The notes below the pieces were generated by a model. The model was not told where the DNA came from. It ran no database searches and saw nothing but the letters and a program-made list of their open reading frames with translations. A stretch of DNA of 30,093 bases, taken from the IMG/VR virus record IMGVR_UViG_3300050821_004106, positions 1 to 30,093 of that record; one strand, 5' to 3'. The translations under genes were made by a program, and so were the position numbers. Each line of letters opens with the position of its first letter. The stretch's first letter is position 1. Positions 4,764 to 20,808 of the stretch are shown piece after piece. The DNA is from a virus.

Positions 4764-5030
4764 TTGTCCAGTACTGAAAACTCTACTCTTATTTTTATGA
4801 CATTAGATAAAATAAAAGAAGTATTATTAATAGAGCCCTTATTTGAAATGGATGGCGTAAGAATATTCTGGGAGAAGGATAGTTACGGTAATTTAACGGG
4901 AGAATTAGTATCTTACCCTGAAAGTGCTGTTGACCCTATCACTGGAATTTGTGACCAGACAAGAAAAATAATATGGCCTAAAGAACTATTAGTTAATCAA
5001 GAGCCAGCAAATGACAAAACTAATTTCTGA
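4764..5030 (+). CDS. Hypothetical protein upstream of terL (88 aa)
   Basis: The chosen start is TTG 4764, preceded by AGGG (4754-4757) 6 bases away. ATG 4797, which has no ribosome site, would give 77 aa. The product has a helix (TLDKIKEVLLIEPLFEM) and a strand region (GVRIFWEKDSYGNLTGELVSYPE), and ends with KIIWPKELLVNQEPANDK. No family is recognised. Its last 20 bases overlap an ATG (5011) that has a ribosome site and would be the natural terL start but lies in a different frame from terL. Confidence 0.55.
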   Translation: MSSTENSTLIFMTLDKIKEVLLIEPLFEMDGVRIFWEKDSYGNLTGELVSYPESAVDPITGICDQTRKIIWPKELLVNQEPANDKTNF

Positions 5031-6694
5031 CACAAGCAAATCAAGTAGTAGAATGGACTCCTTCTAAAAGACAAGAAGATTTTTTTTCCTTACCAGACGA
5101 GATTTTTGAAGCCTTATACGGAGGCGCTGCTTATGGAGGAAAGTCTGATGCATTACTATTCCTGCCTCTTGTAAGAAATTTCATACAACATCCTCGTTTT
5201 AAAGGCTTAATTCTAAGAAGAACTTTCCCAGAACTTGAGAAAGAACTTATAGTACGTTCACGTCATTGGTATCAATTAGCAGGAGGAAAATATAATGATC
5301 AAAAACATGTTTGGACATTTCCTTCTGGAGCAATGATACAGTTTGGTTATTGTGAACATGAAAAAGATGCTCGTAATTATGATTCTGCTGAATATAATTA
5401 TATAGCATTTGATGAGTTAACTTCATTTACTTGGTTTCAGTATTCCTATATTGCATTTACTCGCTGTCGTACAACGGCAGGAAGTGGATTACCAGCAATA
5501 GTTAGAAGTGGTACAAATCCGGGAAACATAGGACATCTATGGGTTAGGGAAAGATTCATAGAGCCTTGCCATACTGGAAATAGAATATTAGTTTCTGAAA
5601 CAGAGATTCGTGGACAAAAGAAACTAACTAGACGTATTTTCATTCCCAGCAAACTTTCTGACAATCCTTACGCTGATCCACAATATGAAATTAATCTTCA
5701 GATGTTACCAGAGGCTGAGAGAGCTGCTAAAGCTGATGGTGATTGGTATACATTTGAAGGACAGGTTTTTGATGATTTCAGATTGTGGGTTTTAAGTAGT
5801 GATGGATTATCTTATGAGCAAATAAATAAACATGAACCAATCAATGCCTGTCATGTAATAAAACCAGTAGTATTACCACTACATTGGCCAAGAGTACTGT
5901 CTGTTGATTGGGGTTACACAGCAATGATGTGTTCTGGTGTATATGCCATTAATCCCGTACAAAGTGAAAGATATCCAGCGAAAATATATAAGGAATTTGA
6001 GTACGCTGGTAAGAAACTTAAAATATCTACCTGGGCTACTAATTTAGCTAGATATACATCTCACATGAATATAGTAAAACGTGTTATAGATCCTTCTGCA
6101 CAACAGAATAGGGGAGACGAATTTACTATACGACAGCAAGTAGAAAATTATTACGGAGCAAGTTTTGAGTTGGCAGTTAATGATCGAATTGCTGGAAAAA
6201 GTTTACTACAAGATCATCTTCGCTGGTTACCAAAACCAGTTAAGAAAATTCCACAAGAACAGTTAGATCAAGAAGAAGCATTAAGAATATACAGGATGTT
6301 AGGTCCTGATGCTTATAAAAGATATATAGATCAGTATACTCAAGAAGAGCTAGAAAGATTTTTACCAAAGTTAGTATTGTTTGATACCTGTATAGAAACA
6401 ATCAAAACAATTCCTCTTTGTGTTTATAAAAAAGGAACAGAGGGAAGTAACACAGAAGATGTACAAGAGTTTGATGGTGATGATCCTTACGATGAAACTA
6501 GATATGGATTAAAAGCGTGTCAAAATTATTTAGAAGGAAATACAATTTTAACAGAAAGAGAGGAAAAAGTAGAAAGGATAGAAAATCAATTTAAACAAGA
6601 TAGTAATAGTTATGAAAGACATTATAAATTAGAAAAGGTTTTGTCTGAGAAATCAGTAAAGCCTGTTAAAATAAGTAAAAAAAGAAGATTTTAA
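5027..6694 (+). CDS. terL: Terminase large subunit, irregular start (about 555 aa)
   Basis: This packaging motor has an N-terminal ATPase that pumps DNA into the prohead and a C-terminal nuclease that cuts it. Numbering from codon 5027: Walker A GGAAYGGKS at 32-40, Walker B IAFDE with Asp129/Glu130, coupling motif GTNPG at 162-166. The RuvC-like nuclease has Asp294 (SVDWGY), Asp355 (VIDPSA) and an acidic group DGDDPYDETRYG including Asp489. Length is normal. The frame is closed by TAA at 5021 and has no ATG, GTG or TTG before Walker A; the first possible codon is CTG 5027. ATG 5011, with an AAGAG ribosome site, is one frame off. Conserved-looking coding (EWTPSKRQEDFF) already begins near 5051, so the start is non-canonical, a +1 shift is used, or the sequence has an indel near 5024-5050. 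Confidence 0.92.
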   Translation: MTQANQVVEWTPSKRQEDFFSLPDEIFEALYGGAAYGGKSDALLFLPLVRNFIQHPRFKGLILRRTFPELEKELIVRSRHWYQLAGGKYNDQKHVWTFPSGAMIQFGYCEHEKDARNYDSAEYNYIAFDELTSFTWFQYSYIAFTRCRTTAGSGLPAIVRSGTNPGNIGHLWVRERFIEPCHTGNRILVSETEIRGQKKLTRRIFIPSKLSDNPYADPQYEINLQMLPEAERAAKADGDWYTFEGQVFDDFRLWVLSSDGLSYEQINKHEPINACHVIKPVVLPLHWPRVLSVDWGYTAMMCSGVYAINPVQSERYPAKIYKEFEYAGKKLKISTWATNLARYTSHMNIVKRVIDPSAQQNRGDEFTIRQQVENYYGASFELAVNDRIAGKSLLQDHLRWLPKPVKKIPQEQLDQEEALRIYRMLGPDAYKRYIDQYTQEELERFLPKLVLFDTCIETIKTIPLCVYKKGTEGSNTEDVQEFDGDDPYDETRYGLKACQNYLEGNTILTEREEKVERIENQFKQDSNSYERHYKLEKVLSEKSVKPVKISKKRRF

Positions 6695-8139: not shown

Positions 8140-10545
8140 GTGCCTAAAAAGAATAAACAATTAACAGTTCAGGAAAAAAGGGATAAGGTTCCTGAACATA
8201 TACGTAAAGCATTTAAAGACATTTTTTCTGCATGTAAAAATGAAGATGCTGAAACACGTAAGGCACAAATTAAAAATTGGAAAGAAGCTGAAGAATTTTG
8301 GTCTGGTGTACAGTATATATTCTGGTCTGAAAGAGATTCTACATGGATTAATCCAGCAGATCAAGCTTGGAGAGAAGGTCTTACTCAAGAAGAATTAGAA
8401 GATGTTGGTCCCTTTTATGATTACATTGTAAATATTTATCGTGCTCATGGTGAAGCTATTATTGCTTCTCTAAGTGCCCAAATACCGTCACTTAGATTTA
8501 TACCAGATAATGCAGATGATACTAATGATACTGTAACAGCAAGAACTTATGATAAAATTGCTGATCTTGTGTCAAGACACAATAAAGCAAAAATGATTTT
8601 TCTTAGGGCGCTGTTTTTCTTGTGGAACTGTGGAATTGTAGCGTCTTATAGATACAAAGAAGCTGATCCGTCATACGGAACTTATGAAGTTCCTGTTTAT
8701 GAGGATGTAGAAGAGAAAGAAATTACTAATGAGTGTCAAGATTGTGGTTTTAGTTGGCCTGATAATTCTAATTCAAATACTGATTTACCTAATGATACGA
8801 TATCAGATACTAGTAATCCAGCAAATGATAGTGATAATGTTCGAGGAAATGAAGAGCAACAGGAACAGCAGCAATCAGGAATTACAGAACAAGAAACAAA
8901 ATGTCCTAAGTGTGGATCAAGTGAAATAGAACAAGAAGAAAGTACTAAACAAGTACCTAAACAAACAGGAACAGAAACTCTTCCTAAAACTAGAGTTAAA
9001 ATAGATATTATTGGTCCTCTTTTCTTTAAGATAAATTACTATGCTACTAAACAGCAAGAAATAACCTATTTTATAAGATGGATAGATCAAGCCAAATCTA
9101 CTATCAAATCTATTTATTGTCCTGATGGTAAAGACAGTGAATTATCACGAGAAATAGATGAGGGTAGATTAGAAAGTCATGATAGATTTACAAGGTCAGG
9201 ACACACATACCCTAATGATCCAGACTATGATACACAACCAATAACTACACTTATAAAATTCTGGTGTAGACCGTCTGAGTATTGGCGTATTAAAGATGAG
9301 AAAGTTAGACTAGAGTTAATAGAAGATTATCCGCTGGGTTTAGAGCTTACTTTTGTAGGTAAAAATGAGTATTTTGTAGAAGTCTCTGGTGAAGCTGACG
9401 ATCAGTTAGATATTAAGTGGGAAATAGGACAAGCTGGGTTATCTACTTATATTCATTCTGATCCAATTGGCAAACCATTACTACCTATTCAGAAAATGAA
9501 AAATCAGGTAGTGAATATGTCTATTGATGTTATAGACCATTCTAATCCCAGCGCCTTTGCTGATCCGTCATTGATAAACTTTGATGCTTACGGAAAAACA
9601 GAAGCGTTACCTGGTTATTTATTTCCTTTTAAAGAAGGTTCTGTTCGTTCTGGAGAATCCGCTGGCAATAGAATATTTGTAATGCCAAAAACTTCTCTCG
9701 GTACAGAAGTTCCTGTATTTGAAGAGTACTTAGATAAAGATGCTCAATTTACAGTAGGTAGTTTTCCTAGTATTTATGGAGGAAGTGGAAGTAATACTAG
9801 CAGAACTGCTAAAGAATATGAACAGTCCAGAGCAATGGCTCTACAGCGACTTACTATTATATGGACTTTTGTTGTTGATTGGTGGGTCAGAACTGTAGAG
9901 GGAATGGTTCGTACTTATGCATCAGTAATTGCTGGAGACGAAAGATTTGCAAAGTGGGATAATGGATCTTACATAAATATTTGGATAAGAAAATCTGAAC
10001 TTTCTGGAAAAGTTGGTGGTGTAGAGTCAGAGGCATCTGAACAATTTCCAATATCATTAATGCAAAAAAGATCGTTACTTATTGAACTTATTCAAATGCA
10101 AAATCCAGCAATTAATCAAGCTCTTTTTACTCCTGATAATGCTAGAATTTTACAAGATTCTTTAGCTCTTAATGAATTTACTCTTCCTGGTGAAAACCAA
10201 CGACTTAAACAAATGTTAGAAATTAATGATCTAACAAAGATGCAACCTATTGCACCTAATGTTCCTTCTATTCCAATAGATGCAGATGTAGATGATGATA
10301 CTGTACATATTTCTGTGGCTACTAATTGGGCTGTTAGTTTGGCAGGAATTGATTGCAATAGGAACAATCCTGCTGGTTATATGAATGTTATTTATCATAT
10401 TAATCTTCACAAACAAAATCAAGCTCAAAAACAATTACAGCAAGCTAAAACACAGATAATGATGCAGAAGAATAGTAGTCAGCAAGATCCTAAAAAACAA
10501 GAGTTTACTAGACAAATGTCTAATAAACAAACCAAAACACAATGA
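8140..10545 (+). CDS. Portal protein with zinc-ribbon insertion (801 aa)
   Basis: The portal is the dodecameric ring at one capsid vertex through which terminase pumps DNA. It starts with GTG 8140. The early helical region (NWKEAEEFWSGVQYIFWSERD, DVGPFYDYIVNIYRAHGEAIIASLSAQIPSLRF) is typical of long P22-like portals, and the extended C-terminal part is Gln-rich and helical (barrel-like). Unusual: residues 199-258 carry Cys199-x2-Cys202 and Cys255-x2-Cys258 on either side of a disordered Asn/Asp/Glu/Gln-rich stretch, a split zinc ribbon. The order terL-portal-scaffold-coat supports the call. Its TGA overlaps the next ATG (ATGA). Confidence 0.85.
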   Translation: MPKKNKQLTVQEKRDKVPEHIRKAFKDIFSACKNEDAETRKAQIKNWKEAEEFWSGVQYIFWSERDSTWINPADQAWREGLTQEELEDVGPFYDYIVNIYRAHGEAIIASLSAQIPSLRFIPDNADDTNDTVTARTYDKIADLVSRHNKAKMIFLRALFFLWNCGIVASYRYKEADPSYGTYEVPVYEDVEEKEITNECQDCGFSWPDNSNSNTDLPNDTISDTSNPANDSDNVRGNEEQQEQQQSGITEQETKCPKCGSSEIEQEESTKQVPKQTGTETLPKTRVKIDIIGPLFFKINYYATKQQEITYFIRWIDQAKSTIKSIYCPDGKDSELSREIDEGRLESHDRFTRSGHTYPNDPDYDTQPITTLIKFWCRPSEYWRIKDEKVRLELIEDYPLGLELTFVGKNEYFVEVSGEADDQLDIKWEIGQAGLSTYIHSDPIGKPLLPIQKMKNQVVNMSIDVIDHSNPSAFADPSLINFDAYGKTEALPGYLFPFKEGSVRSGESAGNRIFVMPKTSLGTEVPVFEEYLDKDAQFTVGSFPSIYGGSGSNTSRTAKEYEQSRAMALQRLTIIWTFVVDWWVRTVEGMVRTYASVIAGDERFAKWDNGSYINIWIRKSELSGKVGGVESEASEQFPISLMQKRSLLIELIQMQNPAINQALFTPDNARILQDSLALNEFTLPGENQRLKQMLEINDLTKMQPIAPNVPSIPIDADVDDDTVHISVATNWAVSLAGIDCNRNNPAGYMNVIYHINLHKQNQAQKQLQQAKTQIMMQKNSSQQDPKKQEFTRQMSNKQTKTQ

Positions 10546-10931
10546 CTAACACTTTTAATTTTCAGTTTCCAGTAGCTAATAAGTTATATAATCTTTGGAA
10601 TGATATTATTATGCCTAATATTTCAAAGTTAGCTGTACTAACACCTCAAGGTGTAGTTAATGTTACTGATACTAGTTTTTCGTTCAATAATTTTACACCT
10701 AAAAATGTAAAATCATTAAAATACCAATCTCAAAATGCTATAGTTAATCCTAATAACGGTGGGGCAGTATTAACTTTGTACTCTGATAATTATGGTAATC
10801 AATTAGGAGAGGAACTACTATCAGGTTCTTGGGATGCTATTGATACTGAAAGAAATAATATAACTTTATCTGATATTTATTTTGCAATGAGTATTGCTGG
10901 AGCTGGAATAAATGTTACGTTTACTCACTAG
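10542..10931 (+). CDS. Hypothetical beta-rich protein after portal (129 aa)
   Basis: ATG 10542 overlaps the portal stop as ATGA, so it is translationally coupled. The body is beta-rich with many Asn, Ser and Thr residues (VLTPQGVVNVTDTSFSFNNF, GAVLTLYSDNYGNQLGEELL) and ends with SIAGAGINVTFTH. There is no enzymatic motif. The composition suits a small virion or fibre-associated protein. Its last 20 bases overlap the signal-peptide gene that follows. Confidence 0.6.
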   Translation: MTNTFNFQFPVANKLYNLWNDIIMPNISKLAVLTPQGVVNVTDTSFSFNNFTPKNVKSLKYQSQNAIVNPNNGGAVLTLYSDNYGNQLGEELLSGSWDAIDTERNNITLSDIYFAMSIAGAGINVTFTH

Positions 10932-11787
10932 TTTATTATTTGTTAGTTTATGTTTTGGGCAGCAGCCAGCGAGTCATATCGTTTCTGGTCCTAAATTACC
11001 AACAAAATGTTCATATTTATCGGGAGATGTATTTATATTATCTACAATACCGTATAATTCTTCTACTAACGGACAGTATTTGTGTGGTCCCACTGGAACT
11101 TTTTCTGTAGGACCATTGAGTTCTAGTAGTAGTTCACCTACCGGAACAGCAGGAGGAGACTTAAGCGGTACATATCCTAATCCTACTGTTAAGAATATAA
11201 ATGGCACAGCTTTCAGTGGAATAAACGGTGATTTAGTTTCTTTTGGTACTGGTAATGTTCCTAGTGATTCTAGTATTTCTGCTGTTAATGTAATTACATC
11301 ATCTACTGCCGCTGGAGGAGTGTTAGCAGGTACATATCCTAATCCAACACTAGGAATATTAAATCAAAATTTAGGCTTTGTAGATGCAACATATGATATA
11401 GGTTCTGGAGGCTCTAACCGTCCTAGAAATGTAAATATTGCAGGTACATTCACTGGAGTTACAGCTAATCTTTATATTGGAATAACTGGGTTTAGTAGTT
11501 GTAGCTCATCGGCGTCTCCAGCCGTTTGTGCAGGAAATTGGTCTGGTGCAGTTGTAGTAGCAGCGGCGGCAACAACAGTACAGGTTAATACTACAGCTAT
11601 AACTGCTAATTCACAAATTCTATTAACTTTTGATTCTTCTTTAAGTACTAAATTATCTGTTACGTGCAATACTACACTTCCGACTGTATACAGTGTGACA
11701 GCGCGAGTACCAGCTACATCATTTACCATAACAGCAACTGCACCAATAACAAATCCAGCATGTTTTTCGTATTTAATTATTAATTAA
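10912..11787 (+). CDS. Signal-peptide fibre-like protein with Tyr-Pro-Asn-Pro repeats (291 aa)
   Basis: The N-terminus MLRLLTSLLFVSLCFG followed by QQP reads as a Sec signal peptide (basic start, hydrophobic core, small residue at the cut site). The mature part is Ser/Thr/Gly-rich and contains two copies of a fibre-type repeat, GGDLSGTYPNPTV near residue 81 and GGVLAGTYPNPTL near residue 137. Such GTYPNPT repeats are known in phage tail fibres and bacterial surface proteins. The rest is beta-rich with paired Cys. The gene starts inside the previous one and ends directly against the ATG of the ATP-grasp gene. A signal peptide on a virion-operon product is odd; export, membrane anchoring or a host-derived domain are the options. 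Confidence 0.65.
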   Translation: MLRLLTSLLFVSLCFGQQPASHIVSGPKLPTKCSYLSGDVFILSTIPYNSSTNGQYLCGPTGTFSVGPLSSSSSSPTGTAGGDLSGTYPNPTVKNINGTAFSGINGDLVSFGTGNVPSDSSISAVNVITSSTAAGGVLAGTYPNPTLGILNQNLGFVDATYDIGSGGSNRPRNVNIAGTFTGVTANLYIGITGFSSCSSSASPAVCAGNWSGAVVVAAAATTVQVNTTAITANSQILLTFDSSLSTKLSVTCNTTLPTVYSVTARVPATSFTITATAPITNPACFSYLIIN

Positions 11788-13047
11788 ATGAAATATTTAA
11801 TGTACTCAGAGTTTTCCGAAGGTGCTGGCGTTCTTCTTAAAATACAACAAGAAGAGGAGGACGCTGGATTATTCATAAAAGATAGAGTCTACAGAGATTG
11901 TTACGACGGTATTGTAAGTAAAGAAGAAACTCCTAATATAAATTCCGATACATTAGTAATTTTTGATATGTCAGGTAATGGTAAAAAAGGTGATGAATTT
12001 AGATCATTAGGAGCTAAAGTATTTGGATCATCTCCTATTGCCGATAAGCTTGAACATGATAGAGATTTTGGTTTTGAAGTAATGGAATCTTGCGGTATAT
12101 TAGTTCCTACTACTAAAAAGTTTAAAACTTTTAAAGAAGGAATTAATTATACTAAAAACTTTGATGGTAAGTTAGTTTTTAAACCAAATGGTTCTATGCC
12201 ATGTAAATTAACTTACTGTTCATCTGATAATGAAGAGTTAGTTGCCTACTTGAATTTTGTAGATAAACAATTTGGATCTGAAATTGATGATTTCATTCTT
12301 CAAGAATTTTTAGAAGGAGTTGTAGTTTCTTCTGAAGCATTTTGTGATGGGAAAAAGTTTCTTCGTCCTTTTAACCATACAGTAGAAGTTAAAAAGTTTA
12401 TGGATGGAGATAAAGGTCCAAGTACAGGATGTTCTGGTAATATTACTTGGGCTTGCTGGGGATGTAATATTTGTGAAAATGGAGTAGCTTTAGCAGAAAA
12501 ATTTTGTGTTAAACATGATTATGTAGGACAAATTGATTTAAATGCTGTTGTAAATGAAGATGGCATTCATGGATTAGAGTGGACTCCTAGATTTGGTTAT
12601 GATGCTACTCCTATTTTCTTAACTTTACTTGATATCCCGTATAGTAAGTTTTTTAGTGATGTTTGTTCAGGACAAATTAAAGAAATTCCTGTTAAAGAAG
12701 AGTACGCTGGCTCTGTTCGTTTTTCAATACCTCCATATCCAGCGGAACTGCAAGATGGTCAGGACAGCGAGAAGTTTAGCCCTAATGTAGGAATTCCTAT
12801 TCAAAACTGGCACGAAAGTTTTGATAGTATATACTTTTACGAAGTAAAAATTGATGGAAATGAATTAGTACATTCTCATGGAACTGGTGTTATAGGTCTT
12901 GTTTGGGATCATAATGATAGTCCTGAAAAGACTTTAGATAAACCTTATGGAATACTAGATAAATTACATATTCCTGATTTACAATTTAGAACGGATCTTC
13001 AGTCTGTTCTAGGAAAGATGGTAACTGAAGTAAACGATTATGCCTAA
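11788..13047 (+). CDS. PurD-like ATP-grasp ligase (419 aa)
   Basis: ATP-grasp enzymes join a carboxylate to an amine or thiol through an acyl phosphate. PurD does this with glycine and phosphoribosylamine. Length and order match PurD: AKVFGSSPIADKLEHDR at about 76-92, KLVFKPNG at 128-135, QEFLEG at 172-177, DGDKGPSTGCSG at 206-217 (PurD DGD-GPNTGGMG), GLEWTPRFGYDA at 262-273 (PurD EFNARFGDPE) and a C-terminal FRTDL motif. Differences: the Asn of the usual Glu-x-Asn metal site is Thr266, and the N-terminal phosphate loop of PurD is missing. Residues 215-229 hold Cys215, Cys223, Cys226 and Cys229 (CWGCNIC). It begins at the stop of the previous gene and overlaps the scaffold by 8 bases, so it is made with the virion proteins. 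The substrate is unknown; true purine synthesis is unlikely. Confidence 0.8.
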   Translation: MKYLMYSEFSEGAGVLLKIQQEEEDAGLFIKDRVYRDCYDGIVSKEETPNINSDTLVIFDMSGNGKKGDEFRSLGAKVFGSSPIADKLEHDRDFGFEVMESCGILVPTTKKFKTFKEGINYTKNFDGKLVFKPNGSMPCKLTYCSSDNEELVAYLNFVDKQFGSEIDDFILQEFLEGVVVSSEAFCDGKKFLRPFNHTVEVKKFMDGDKGPSTGCSGNITWACWGCNICENGVALAEKFCVKHDYVGQIDLNAVVNEDGIHGLEWTPRFGYDATPIFLTLLDIPYSKFFSDVCSGQIKEIPVKEEYAGSVRFSIPPYPAELQDGQDSEKFSPNVGIPIQNWHESFDSIYFYEVKIDGNELVHSHGTGVIGLVWDHNDSPEKTLDKPYGILDKLHIPDLQFRTDLQSVLGKMVTEVNDYA

Positions 13048-14245
13048 TGATAATAAAGTTATTGGTGATCCGTTAGAAGATGTTTTAGACGATACTAGTA
13101 ATGAGCAAGAGGAGGAAATAGAAAAAGTAGAAAATAAAGAATTAGAGGAAGAAAATGAAGAAGATGATGAGTTAGAAGATAAAGAAGAAGATAAAGAAGA
13201 AGAAGAGTTAGAAGGAGATGAAGAAGACGAAGATACAGAAGTAATAGTAAAACCAAGAATTTCCGATATTAAAAAAGAATTTCCTGGAATTTTTACTAAG
13301 TTTCCTGATCTTAAAGATGCTTTCTTTAAATCTTATGAGTATGAAAAATTATTTCCTACTATAGACGATGCAAAAGAGGCTTTCAATGATAATGAAGCCT
13401 ACTTAAATCTTCGTGAGTCTGTACTATCAGGTAATCCTGAACTATTACTTACCGGACTTAAAAGTACAGACACTGAGGCATACACTCTTTTTACTAGGAG
13501 ACTTCTTCCAACATTATTTAAAAATGATAAGGATTTATACACAGAAGTTGTTACTCCAGCGATAGAAGGCTTATTTAAAAATGCCTTTAAAGAGGCTAAA
13601 AAACATTCTAATGAAAACTTAGAAAATGCTTGTTTGGAGTTAGTAGAACATATTTTTGGTAGTGATGAGTTACTCACCAAAAATATTACTTATACTAAAG
13701 AATTAAAAGCAACTAAACCCGAAGAAGTAACTCAACGAGAAACAGAACTGTATAATTCTGCTAGAAATGATTGTGCAGAAAAGATTGATAAATCTATAAG
13801 ATTAGAAATAAGAAAAGGATTAGACCCAAATAATGAATTAGTGCCATTTATACGTAAAAGTATTATTAGTTCTGTTGTCAGAGAGTTAGACAAACAATTA
13901 GGAGTAGATACTAAATTCCAAGCAACACAATCGGCAAGATGGGGAGTAGCAAAAAGAAAAGGATTTGATGAATCTAGTAAACGTCAGTTAATAAATGCGG
14001 CCCTGGCACGTATAAAGCCTATGATTCCTCAATTAAGAGAAAAATTTAAAAATGCTGCTCTTGGTAGTGCAAAAAAGAGAAGTGATGATACTCGTGAACA
14101 AATAACTAGAAATACCCCAAATAAAAGAGAAATTACTGGTGGAAATAGAAATGTAGGTAAAGGTAAACTAGACTCAAGTAAAATTGATTATAGTAAAACC
14201 AGTGACCTTGATTTATTTGAAGATCGTGTAGTTCTTAAACGTTAA
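13040..14245 (+). CDS. Scaffolding protein (401 aa)
   Basis: The internal scaffold guides coat assembly and leaves before or during packaging. The N-terminal 70 residues are almost all Glu/Asp/Lys (for example NEEDDELEDKEEDKEEEELE), and the body is helical with no enzyme motifs. The C-terminus is basic (RSDDTREQITRNTPNKREI, ending VVLKR), as expected for the coat-binding tail of scaffolds. Immediate position before the coat gene strongly supports the call. It overlaps the end of the ATP-grasp gene by 8 bases. Confidence 0.8.
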   Translation: MPNDNKVIGDPLEDVLDDTSNEQEEEIEKVENKELEEENEEDDELEDKEEDKEEEELEGDEEDEDTEVIVKPRISDIKKEFPGIFTKFPDLKDAFFKSYEYEKLFPTIDDAKEAFNDNEAYLNLRESVLSGNPELLLTGLKSTDTEAYTLFTRRLLPTLFKNDKDLYTEVVTPAIEGLFKNAFKEAKKHSNENLENACLELVEHIFGSDELLTKNITYTKELKATKPEEVTQRETELYNSARNDCAEKIDKSIRLEIRKGLDPNNELVPFIRKSIISSVVRELDKQLGVDTKFQATQSARWGVAKRKGFDESSKRQLINAALARIKPMIPQLREKFKNAALGSAKKRSDDTREQITRNTPNKREITGGNRNVGKGKLDSSKIDYSKTSDLDLFEDRVVLKR

Positions 14246-14259
14246 AAGAGGATAATTAT

Positions 14260-15588
14260 ATGCCAGGTACAGAAGCTCAAGTTCTTGCTTTGGAACTTGA
14301 AAAAGTAGAAGAAAAAATTGCAATTGCATTTGAAAGAGATGATACTTTTTTTTCACAGGTAGAAAAAAGGCCAGCGGAAGTAGTTAGTTCATTTGCTATG
14401 AGAGTACCACTAGAATTAAGGCCCGGAGGAAAACCAGGTCAGTGGACTAGTGAAGGTGGAGATATGGGTACTGGTGATATGCCTTATTATGATAAGGCAG
14501 AAATCAATACTGTAGAACTTATTTGGCGTGCTCAGTGGTCTTTACGTCGAAAATTTGCCACTGATAATAATAGAAAAGCAATTGTAAATGCTTTTAAGAG
14601 AGACATAGCTAGTGCAATGAAATCATTTCGTAGGTTTAATGATTCTCTTTGCATGACAAGTAATGCTGGCCAGTTAGGAACAGTAGGAAGTGTTACTACT
14701 TCTGGGGGTCAGGATACTTATATTTGCAATGTAGATGGTTTTGGAACTCGTTTGATGCAAAGTGGCTGGGAAATTGATATTTGGGACCCTACATTAACTA
14801 TCAAAAGAACTGGTCATGGTCCTGGAAATGGAGGTTCTTACCAGATTAATTTCTGGGATGTAGCTAACAAAGTAGTTTCTGTTAATGGTTCTCCTTCTCT
14901 TACTGCTGGAGATCAAGCTGTGCAACCAGGAGATATTATTGTAGCTCAAGGGTCTACATTTCAAATTAATAACCTTTACCCCGGAAATACACTTACTGCT
15001 AATCCTCCTACTGCCATTGCAGGTGTTCAGTATCAGAACAGTAATAGTTCTATTGGATCTTGGAATGGATTTAATCGTTCTACTACTCCTGAAATCAGAG
15101 CAAATGCTGTTGTAGCATCTGGACCTTTTGCTATTCCTATGGCTCGTTTAGCGATTAATAAAATAGGAAACAGGCTAGGAATGGAGAATATGAAGAAGTT
15201 GAATGCTTGGATGCATCCTGCCCAAGCTCAGCAGTACGAAGAATTAGCACAAGAGAGTATTATTATTAATAAAGAAGCTAAGGAACAGGGAGTAGATTTA
15301 TATTTTAATGATAATATGAGACTCGCTGGTGCTCCAGTCAAGAAACATTTTGGTTGGGATATGACAAGAATTGATTTTCTTGATATGGATTTAATGGGTC
15401 GTGCTGAGTTTTATCCTTGCCGCTGGCATAAAGATGAGAATGGAAATCGTGTATTTGTTGGCAGGGGAACTTCTGGTGGATTACAGGCAATAGAATTTAG
15501 TTATATCATTTGTGCATGGCAAATGTATTGTGCTAATCCAGCGGGTTTGTCAAACATTAATACACTTACTGTTCCTAGTGGTTATTAA
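14260..15588 (+). CDS. Major capsid (coat) protein (442 aa)
   Basis: This forms the icosahedral shell. It follows the scaffold, and a ribosome site AAAGAGG precedes ATG 14260. The N-terminal helical arm (LALELEKVEEKIAIAFERDD) is followed by a region resembling the HK97-fold E-loop and P-domain (ELIWRAQWSLRRKFATDNNRKAI, RDIASAMKSFRRFNDSL), an inserted beta domain (about residues 140-290) and a C-terminal A-domain-like part (INKIGNRLGMENMKKLNAWMHPAQAQQYEEL). Length is normal for P22-like or related podovirus coats. It carries four CGCTGG/CCAGCG hexamers. Confidence 0.85.
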   Translation: MPGTEAQVLALELEKVEEKIAIAFERDDTFFSQVEKRPAEVVSSFAMRVPLELRPGGKPGQWTSEGGDMGTGDMPYYDKAEINTVELIWRAQWSLRRKFATDNNRKAIVNAFKRDIASAMKSFRRFNDSLCMTSNAGQLGTVGSVTTSGGQDTYICNVDGFGTRLMQSGWEIDIWDPTLTIKRTGHGPGNGGSYQINFWDVANKVVSVNGSPSLTAGDQAVQPGDIIVAQGSTFQINNLYPGNTLTANPPTAIAGVQYQNSNSSIGSWNGFNRSTTPEIRANAVVASGPFAIPMARLAINKIGNRLGMENMKKLNAWMHPAQAQQYEELAQESIIINKEAKEQGVDLYFNDNMRLAGAPVKKHFGWDMTRIDFLDMDLMGRAEFYPCRWHKDENGNRVFVGRGTSGGLQAIEFSYIICAWQMYCANPAGLSNINTLTVPSGY

Positions 15589-17249: not shown

Positions 17250-17894
17250 ATGTCAATACTTACATTACAAACAGTTCTTAGTCAGGCTAGAACACTATTA
17301 AACGATGACGCTGGATCACAGTTTCCAGACAGTATTTTAATTCCTAAAATACAATTAGCACATCAGGAATTACAGACTGCCTTATGGGATGCTGGTTCTC
17401 CTTCTGTAAGAGCTGTTAGTTCTCCTATACAAATAACTGCTGGTAATTTAACACTTACTCCAACATCATCCCCTGCATTACCAAGTGACTATCTTACTGC
17501 TTTTAGATTAATGGAAAGTGCTGCTAGTACTGGTCCCTGGACACCAATGACTGAAGTAATGTTTATTACTGATCTTCAATTAGCTGGTTATATAGCTGGT
17601 GCTACTTTAAAATGGTGGTGTAATATTCAAGATCAAATTGCTTTTTTAGGTTCAACTAATTCTCCTTATATAATAATGAATTATCGTCGTTTTATTGCTC
17701 TCCCTGTAGCAGCTACTGATTCTCTTGGTGTTCCTTTTGCAGAGCAATATCTTTCTTATAGGGCTGGAGCTTTAGCAGGAGGAAGTTTAGGTGATCCTAA
17801 TAGTTTAAAGAATTTATCTGACATGGCAACTGCTAATTTGGTTAAAGTTGTTATGGCAAATCGTGGTAAACAAATGTCTCCGATAAAACCATGA
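17250..17894 (+). CDS. Tail adaptor/connector protein, paralogue 1 (214 aa)
   Basis: This resembles the head-to-tail adaptors of podoviruses (P22 gp4-type role), which dock under the portal. AAGGAG precedes ATG 17250. The N-terminal signature SQARTLLNDDAG, then FPDS.L.PKI..AHQEL (residues 11-41), is shared with the protein at 20128 (SQARTYLNDESG, WPDS.L.P...AHNEL). The shared C-terminal part YRRFIALPVAATDSLGVPFAE matches YRGTLIAPVSLTDSLGFILAE. The two are clear paralogues, about the same length. It overlaps the spike gene by an ATGA. Confidence 0.7.
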   Translation: MSILTLQTVLSQARTLLNDDAGSQFPDSILIPKIQLAHQELQTALWDAGSPSVRAVSSPIQITAGNLTLTPTSSPALPSDYLTAFRLMESAASTGPWTPMTEVMFITDLQLAGYIAGATLKWWCNIQDQIAFLGSTNSPYIIMNYRRFIALPVAATDSLGVPFAEQYLSYRAGALAGGSLGDPNSLKNLSDMATANLVKVVMANRGKQMSPIKP

Positions 17895-20127: not shown

Positions 20128-20808
20128 ATGTCTCCTAGTGCATCTACAGCATTAACAGCAATTAGTCAGGCAAGAACTTATCTTAATGATGAGTCTGGTA
20201 ATGTATGGCCTGACAGTAGGTTAATGCCTATTCTTACTACTGCTCATAATGAACTTTCTAGTAGATTAATTGCTAATGGAGTAGCTATTGTAAGACAACA
20301 GAGTCAAATTATAACAGTTCCTCCAATAAATCCACTTCAAACACCTCCTATACCTCTTCCTAACCAACCATCTAATATGGTATTTCCAATAAGTATGCAG
20401 GAAAAACAAACAGGAAGTGACATAGAGTTTTTTATAGATATGTCGCAAATGGACTTTGTTCCTATGTTAGATCCTGTTGAAGAGTTAGGTTACTGGGCTT
20501 GGATTGGCCAGCAGATAATGATTATAGGGGCTACTGTTTCTGTAGATGTTTTATTACGTTATAGAGGAACTCTTATTGCTCCTGTGTCCTTAACTGATAG
20601 TTTAGGATTTATTCTTGCCGAATTATTTTTAGGTCCTAGAGTAGCCGCACTTGCTTATATGTCTTCTGGTGACCAGCGATGGAAAGATTTTGATAAGCAA
20701 GCACAAGAAAGTTTAAGTACAGTTATTGGATATAATGTCGCTGGTAATCAAGGTGTAGGTAAAAGACGCATGGCTTATAGACGTGGTGGTAACAGAAGAA
20801 TTTATTAA
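20128..20808 (+). CDS. Tail adaptor/connector protein, paralogue 2 (226 aa)
   Basis: It shares with the protein at 17250 the N-terminal signature SQAR.YLND.SG...PDS.L.P...AHNEL (residues 13-43), the central WIGQQIMIIGATVSV stretch and the TDSLGFILAE region. It ends with a basic Arg/Gly tail (GKRRMAYRRGGNRRIY) that the other copy lacks. One copy may sit at the portal and the other may form a second ring or bind the spike. It starts 5 bases after the spike stop, with no clear ribosome site. Confidence 0.7.
   Translation: MSPSASTALTAISQARTYLNDESGNVWPDSRLMPILTTAHNELSSRLIANGVAIVRQQSQIITVPPINPLQTPPIPLPNQPSNMVFPISMQEKQTGSDIEFFIDMSQMDFVPMLDPVEELGYWAWIGQQIMIIGATVSVDVLLRYRGTLIAPVSLTDSLGFILAELFLGPRVAALAYMSSGDQRWKDFDKQAQESLSTVIGYNVAGNQGVGKRRMAYRRGGNRRIY

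Follow-up and report, generated by a model that had tools for sequence, protein, structure and literature searches.

What does an enzyme with the fold of a purine-synthesis ligase do among the genes that build a virus particle? The window analysed here, a linear virus record of the IMG/VR type with 30,093 bases, carries such a gene (Table 1). Its open reading frame starts with ATG, has zero internal stops, begins one base past the end of a fibre-like frame and overlaps the start of the following frame by 8 bases. The original prediction described a PurD-like frame between a fibre-like gene and a scaffold gene, inside a virion operon, and both the coordinates and the genomic context bear this out, with weaker evidence behind the two neighbour labels. 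The fibre-like label draws on weak matches (PF24146, E 6e-5, below its cutoff; phrog_28023, E 5e-4), together with a visible signal peptide and GDLSGTYPNPT-type repeats. The scaffold label follows from an acidic composition and a conserved position ahead of the presumed major capsid gene. Pfam and PHROGs searches of the scaffold, portal, capsid and one downstream gene produced no useful name. We consider, with a probability of roughly 0.62, that the gene encodes an active ATP-grasp carboxylate-amine ligase that derives from PurD or shares an ancestor with it, does not make GAR, and is carried as an accessory late gene.

Table 1. Features of the ligase gene and its neighbours, in window coordinates
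Feature	Position	Strand	Remarks
PurD-fold ATP-grasp ligase, E-x-T family	11788..13047	+	419 aa; family profiles, fold model
Lys132 codon, ATP-grasp lysine	12181..12183	+	invariant 205/205; position from translation
Glu200-Val201-Lys202	12385..12393	+	aligns with PurD Asp212-His-Lys214 (A. aeolicus numbering); Glu 204/205, Lys 205/205
Cys215 codon (PurD Gly in NTGGMG)	12430..12432	+	family: Cys 84/205, Glu 118/205
CWGCNIC (Cys223, 226, 229)	12454..12474	+	not conserved in nearest relatives
Asp250 codon	12535..12537	+	invariant 205/205; aligned with PurD Tyr; presumed extra metal ligand
Glu264-Trp-Thr-Pro-Arg268, E-[W/F]-T-x-R motif	12577..12591	+	E, T and R invariant 205/205
Presumed portal gene	8140..10545	+	synteny and size; no significant family hit
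Small protein	10542..10931	+	similar ones between portal and ligase in most phages of the window's lineage, by eye
Fibre-like protein, apparent signal peptide	10912..11787	+	in hypervariable portal-scaffold slot
Scaffold-like gene	13040..14245	+	start overlaps ligase gene by 8 bases
Presumed major capsid gene	14260..15588	+	synteny; no family hit

Two further features of the window were observed. The terminase frame (5027-6694) has no ATG, GTG or TTG start covering its ATP-binding part; its open stretch runs from a CTG at 5027, which shares bases with the stop codon of the preceding frame (CTGA). Two related proteins of one cluster (17250-17894 and 20128-20808) lie on either side of a protein of 743 aa that seems to have a signal peptide.

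Structurally, the protein is the full-length PurD-like enzyme that had been predicted. It matches Pfam GARS_A (E 7e-15), the solved B. subtilis PurD 2xcl (E 1e-17) and the NCBIfam purD model TIGR00877 (E 8e-24), the last at 84.2 bits against a cutoff of 288. A likeness of this degree greatly exceeds what chance would give. An AlphaFold2 model based on a 26-member alignment is confident over the full length (pLDDT 92, pTM 0.90) and contains the complete PurD fold, with its N, A, B and C domains. The top 13 PDB entries matching this model are all GAR synthetases (Z 30-37), and 2yw2 aligns with Z 36.8 and an rmsd of 2.9 over 391 residues. PurK, PurT and biotin carboxylase form a second fold group at Z about 24, but PurK and PurT are only 9-12% identical to the ligase in structural alignments. 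PurK and PurT also carry E-x-[A/S]-P-R instead of E-x-N-x-R and have two acidic metal ligands. A search of a viral structure library gave no full-length fold match, only partial ATP-grasp matches with a best TM of 0.46 on the query. With its fold, conserved lysine and acidic metal-ligand residues, the window ligase falls within the ATP-grasp superfamily.

Database scans place the window protein in a sizeable phage family. A tblastn search of phage records yielded one convincing phage, Caudoviricetes ct2os315 (MW202796.1), which has an intact frame at 42140-43471 where no gene is annotated. This frame belongs to the same family, lies in a virion module and carries an EFT motif, yet it is about 25% identical to the window protein, has Glu in place of Cys215, and lies at the module's end with ejection-type genes next to it. 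The search also gave many other "phage" matches (Salmonella, Listeria, Acinetobacter and faecal contigs); these resemble the usual bacterial purD, carried on contaminant contigs, and were discarded. The ct2os315 frame has 49 close relatives in IMG/VR, and alignment-based IMG/VR scans returned overlapping sets of 245 and 362 confirmed loci, the best 80 of each being kept. Viral scans from the window ligase alone or the window capsid protein alone gave no match, their patterns being too specific. Among the matches listed, the nearest relative of the window ligase is L054, at 60% identity, followed by L132-L134, L144 and L145 at 53-55%. Purifying selection acts on the family, with dN/dS values for close pairs of 0.04-0.21 and a median of about 0.09 (1559 non-independent pairs). 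A literature search found no paper on a PurD-like phage family in virion operons.

Compared with PurD (GAR synthetase, EC 6.3.4.13; TIGR00877; PF01071, PF02843), the phage ligase keeps the whole fold, the ATP-grasp lysines, the KK..DGDxGPxTG stretch, the metal-binding Glu and the Arg of the RFG motif, but differs at much of the remaining active site. The alignment used here holds 205 full-length sequences, which are not de-replicated, include near-copies and contain the window as two locus copies; K132, K202, G210, G214, D250, E264, T266, R268 and G270 are invariant in all of them, and E200 is Glu in 204. The PurD signature R[LF]GDPE (PS00184) is missing: RFGDPE becomes RFGYDA in the window, and residue 271, the Asp of GDPE in PurD, is Trp, Tyr or Leu in all 205 sequences. 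The N-terminal GGREH loop, present in the true PurDs compared, is absent from the window protein (MKYLMYSEFSEGAGV), and the Gly of PurD at position 215 is replaced by Cys or Glu. The metal motif E-x-N had been predicted to read EWT at residues 264-266; it does so in the translation, and since E-[W/F]-T is found in 205/205 sequences, this change is a family trait. Asp250 is likewise new and aligns with a Tyr of PurD. Most ATP-grasp enzymes have an acidic metal ligand that PurD lacks, and Asp250 may supply one in place of the lost Asn. In A. aeolicus PurD, glycine is held by Asp212, Arg287 and Glu292 (PMC8880213). These residues align with E200, R268 and A273 of the window protein, and the last site is mostly Leu or Ala in the family.

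These residues suggest how the enzyme may work. Mg-ATP would be held by Lys132, Lys202 and Glu264, with Asp250, as placed by the alignment rather than by a metal-bound structure, acting as the second acidic metal ligand where PurD has Asn. The gamma-phosphate would then pass to a substrate carboxylate and yield an acyl phosphate, a step that Arg268 and Glu200 may help to steer, and attack by an amine would produce an amide. Because most of the residues that hold glycine and phosphoribosylamine have changed, the substrates are probably not these two compounds bound as in PurD. The original prediction had proposed a late peptide-like or amine ligation to capsid, DNA or a small molecule. These targets are candidates, and the carboxylate-amine ligase reaction is the best-backed part of that proposal, favoured by the fold and the invariant residues.

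The same prediction pointed to CWGCNIC and Cys215 as a possible metal or Fe-S site. The residues are present in the translation, but they are not conserved as a key site would be. Within residues 214-246, a CxxCxxC pattern is shared by the window and six other loci (L148, L149, L152, L159, L166 and L174), all less than 40% identical to the window, with CxGCxxC at the same alignment place. It is absent from L054, from every relative of 40-60% identity and from nearly all other members, so the cluster appears to be dispensable. Loss in close relatives is the very observation that the original prediction had set as grounds for dropping the cluster. Cys215, judged from the same alignment, marks one sub-branch of the family.

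Cellular relatives exist as well. A genome scan with the first family alignment gave no match; one with the second succeeded, returning 130 confirmed loci, 80 of which were kept and lie mostly on haloarchaeal chromosomes, with others in Nitrososphaerota, Woesearchaeota, Nanoarchaeota, Patescibacteria and Bacteroidota assemblies. The relatives found are 27-32% identical to the window protein and carry the motif LE[FW]TPRFGY. The window protein in turn resembles the haloarchaeal-type PurD paralogs in overall sequence, in E-[W/F]-T-P-R-x-G-Y and in having no GDPE. Brown et al. 2011 concluded that the additional PurD-like proteins in Haloarcula and Halorubrum are not GAR synthetases, the same Asp and metal sites being lost (PMC3261824). 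These two proteins, Hlac_1553 and rrnAC0307, are the same kind of non-PurD paralog, with the RFGDPE Asp lost and a divergent N terminus as reported; they are tied to the cellular loci found here, which share E-[W/F]-T-P-R-F-G-Y with the window protein, by description and taxon and not by direct alignment. The four haloarchaeal genomes tested have a full-score PurD (388-394 bits) and PurF besides the E-x-T paralog. In three DPANN/CPR draft genomes, which may be incomplete, the paralog was found and no full-score PurD or PurF. The paralog is widespread in haloarchaea (loci L218-L289) without a conserved operon, its neighbours forming no operon common across genera; unlike the phage ligase, it is chromosomal and has no virion context. 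The tree separates all phage and cellular members from six true PurDs, and the root position between phage and cellular members is unsure owing to the long PurD branch. One bacterial locus on a 48 kb contig, L210 from a Sulfuriferula MAG, groups within a phage clade and is probably viral.

Genomic context ties the gene to virion operons. The gene order in the window's lineage is portal, variable genes, ligase, scaffold and capsid, and the ligase and scaffold frames overlap by 8-16 bases in 12 of 13 loci. Ligase and capsid are similarly close to those of the window (60 and 58% identity in L054, 54 and 54% in L132), both values being higher than those of scaffold or portal. Other clades have the gene after genes of the ejection-protein type or with a head-closure gene as neighbour, and in well-resolved loci virion genes surround or adjoin it on the same strand. 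No single neighbour is common to all ligase clades, so the context names no target. A capsid-based scan gave 80 loci, 79 with the portal in hand; the ligase is present in 18 of the 79, directly before the scaffold in 17, and lacking there in 61, where portal and scaffold abut in many cases. A ligase search of 41 whole records among those lacking it in the slot found no copy elsewhere; this search had no positive control of its own, but a profile built on that alignment did recover the 18 ligase-bearing loci in the capsid-relative scan. In L313, whose capsid is 57% identical to that of the window, the slot holds a fibre-like gene and no ligase, and the slot also houses other unrelated accessory genes. 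The portal-scaffold slot is thus hypervariable, and because only 18 of 79 capsid relatives have the ligase there, the gene is accessory in the window's lineage. The interval (window 10542-11787; L313, L324, L335 and L349) is rich in fibre-like proteins with apparent signal peptides. An obligate capsid enzyme is rejected in view of the 61 relatives without the gene. Expression with the capsid genes, as originally proposed, fits the virion operon; an obligate capsid role is weakened by the count of 18 in 79 and by the 41 records without a match. As an accessory late gene in virion operons, the ligase would deliver its product while particles assemble.

Two kinds of small peptide occur upstream of the gene in other clades. 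One clade has a 41-62 aa peptide (MSGQSAxLSxxEA...) encoded between ejection protein and ligase in 15 of the 15 loci that reach far enough, a set that was reached via ligase-bearing relatives and in which linkage and shared ancestry are not separated. This peptide, just upstream of the ligase in L392-L405 and L407, has a conserved start and a variable hydrophilic tail. In another clade, a Lys-rich MPLK-type peptide of 44-60 aa precedes the ligase; in many of L069-L131 it reads MPLKxGSSxxT... and its frame often runs a few bases into the start of the ligase gene. Peptides of this MPLK type are widespread among phages. Neither type was found beside the window's gene, and both are candidate substrates, no more. 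For scanning, the small-peptide alignment was too short and the ejection alignment (A7) too diverse.

Several readings of the gene compete. Annotation pipelines would call it a true PurD, an auxiliary metabolic gene that boosts purine synthesis, and the full-length fold, PurD as the best named family and work on snow phages that lists purD among viral auxiliary genes (PMC11097641) speak for that call. It is nevertheless very improbable: the profile score is far below cutoff, GDPE, E-x-N and GGREH are lost across the family, the two haloarchaeal proteins of Brown et al., which are of this kind, were not accepted as GAR synthetases (PMC3261824), and the paralog-bearing DPANN/CPR drafts have no full-score PurF. 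PurF is also missing from the window record and 17 further phage records with the ligase, apart from one weak 38-bit amidotransferase-type match; on viral records that may be fragments and on draft MAGs, this agrees with the original view that purine synthesis is unlikely here. A weak PurF-profile match of this type, probably a class-II glutamine amidotransferase, lies at 6097-6651 on the minus strand of the L058 record (G029), a phage record that also carries the ligase. A metal- or Fe-S-dependent enzyme whose chemistry relies on the Cys cluster could be argued from the shared placement of CxGCxxC in the window and six distant loci, but hardly seems credible when every 40-60% relative has lost the cluster and the ATP site is invariant. 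A non-enzymatic structural protein reusing the fold would suit a gene among structural genes, and is just as hard to credit, as the invariant part is the set of ATP and metal residues and 61 of 79 capsid relatives do without the gene.

Two other readings concern what the ligase might make, the candidates being virion or fibre proteins in modified form, a short partner peptide and a small molecule. The enzyme could make a small molecule that aids infection, such as a modified nucleotide, an envelope or surface precursor or a conjugated amino acid, the late position setting only the timing. This is a possible reading, short of an even chance: the fold family makes small amides, the haloarchaeal sister enzymes are single chromosomal genes with no shared operon, as expected of stand-alone metabolic enzymes, and the slot accepts other unrelated accessory genes, but accessory metabolic genes are usually early or middle genes, and this one is tied to virion operons in several clades. 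Somewhat less probable is a tentative, narrower form of the main reading: the ligase would modify virions by coupling an amino acid, or an acid like it, to a protein of the capsid, fibre or ejection apparatus, or else to the tiny peptide encoded upstream in some clades. It gains from a location among or beside virion genes of the same orientation in the well-resolved loci, from the overlapping frames directly before the scaffold and from the clade-specific MSGQ and MPLK-type peptides; against it, these peptides differ between clades and are missing beside the window's gene, the MSGQ linkage is confounded with shared ancestry, MPLK-type peptides occur widely, and most capsid relatives lack the ligase. 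Virion ligation is best described as possible. The most specific version is rather unlikely: a phage-encoded system for tailoring peptides, with a purine enzyme as its ancestor, in which the viral ligase would attach an amino acid or another acid either to a component of the virion or to a dedicated tiny peptide encoded alongside.

The window ligase also differs from another phage ATP-grasp enzyme. That of the LUZ24-like phages, encoded with an amidoligase and a glutamine amidotransferase, has 291 aa and belongs to an early gene module (PMC3890496), whereas the window ligase has the PurD fold and lies in a late virion module.

This example bears on how viral genomes are read. Pipelines will label such genes purD and enter them under viral purine metabolism, a role that the active site contradicts. 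Metagenomes contain many members of the family, and the search of phage records turned up a single metagenome-assembled genome that clearly carries it, with no gene call. The family also links to an archaeal paralog family. Many uncultivated bacterial viruses carry a re-tuned descendant of a purine ligase among their particle-building genes, one that probably joins another acid to an amine.
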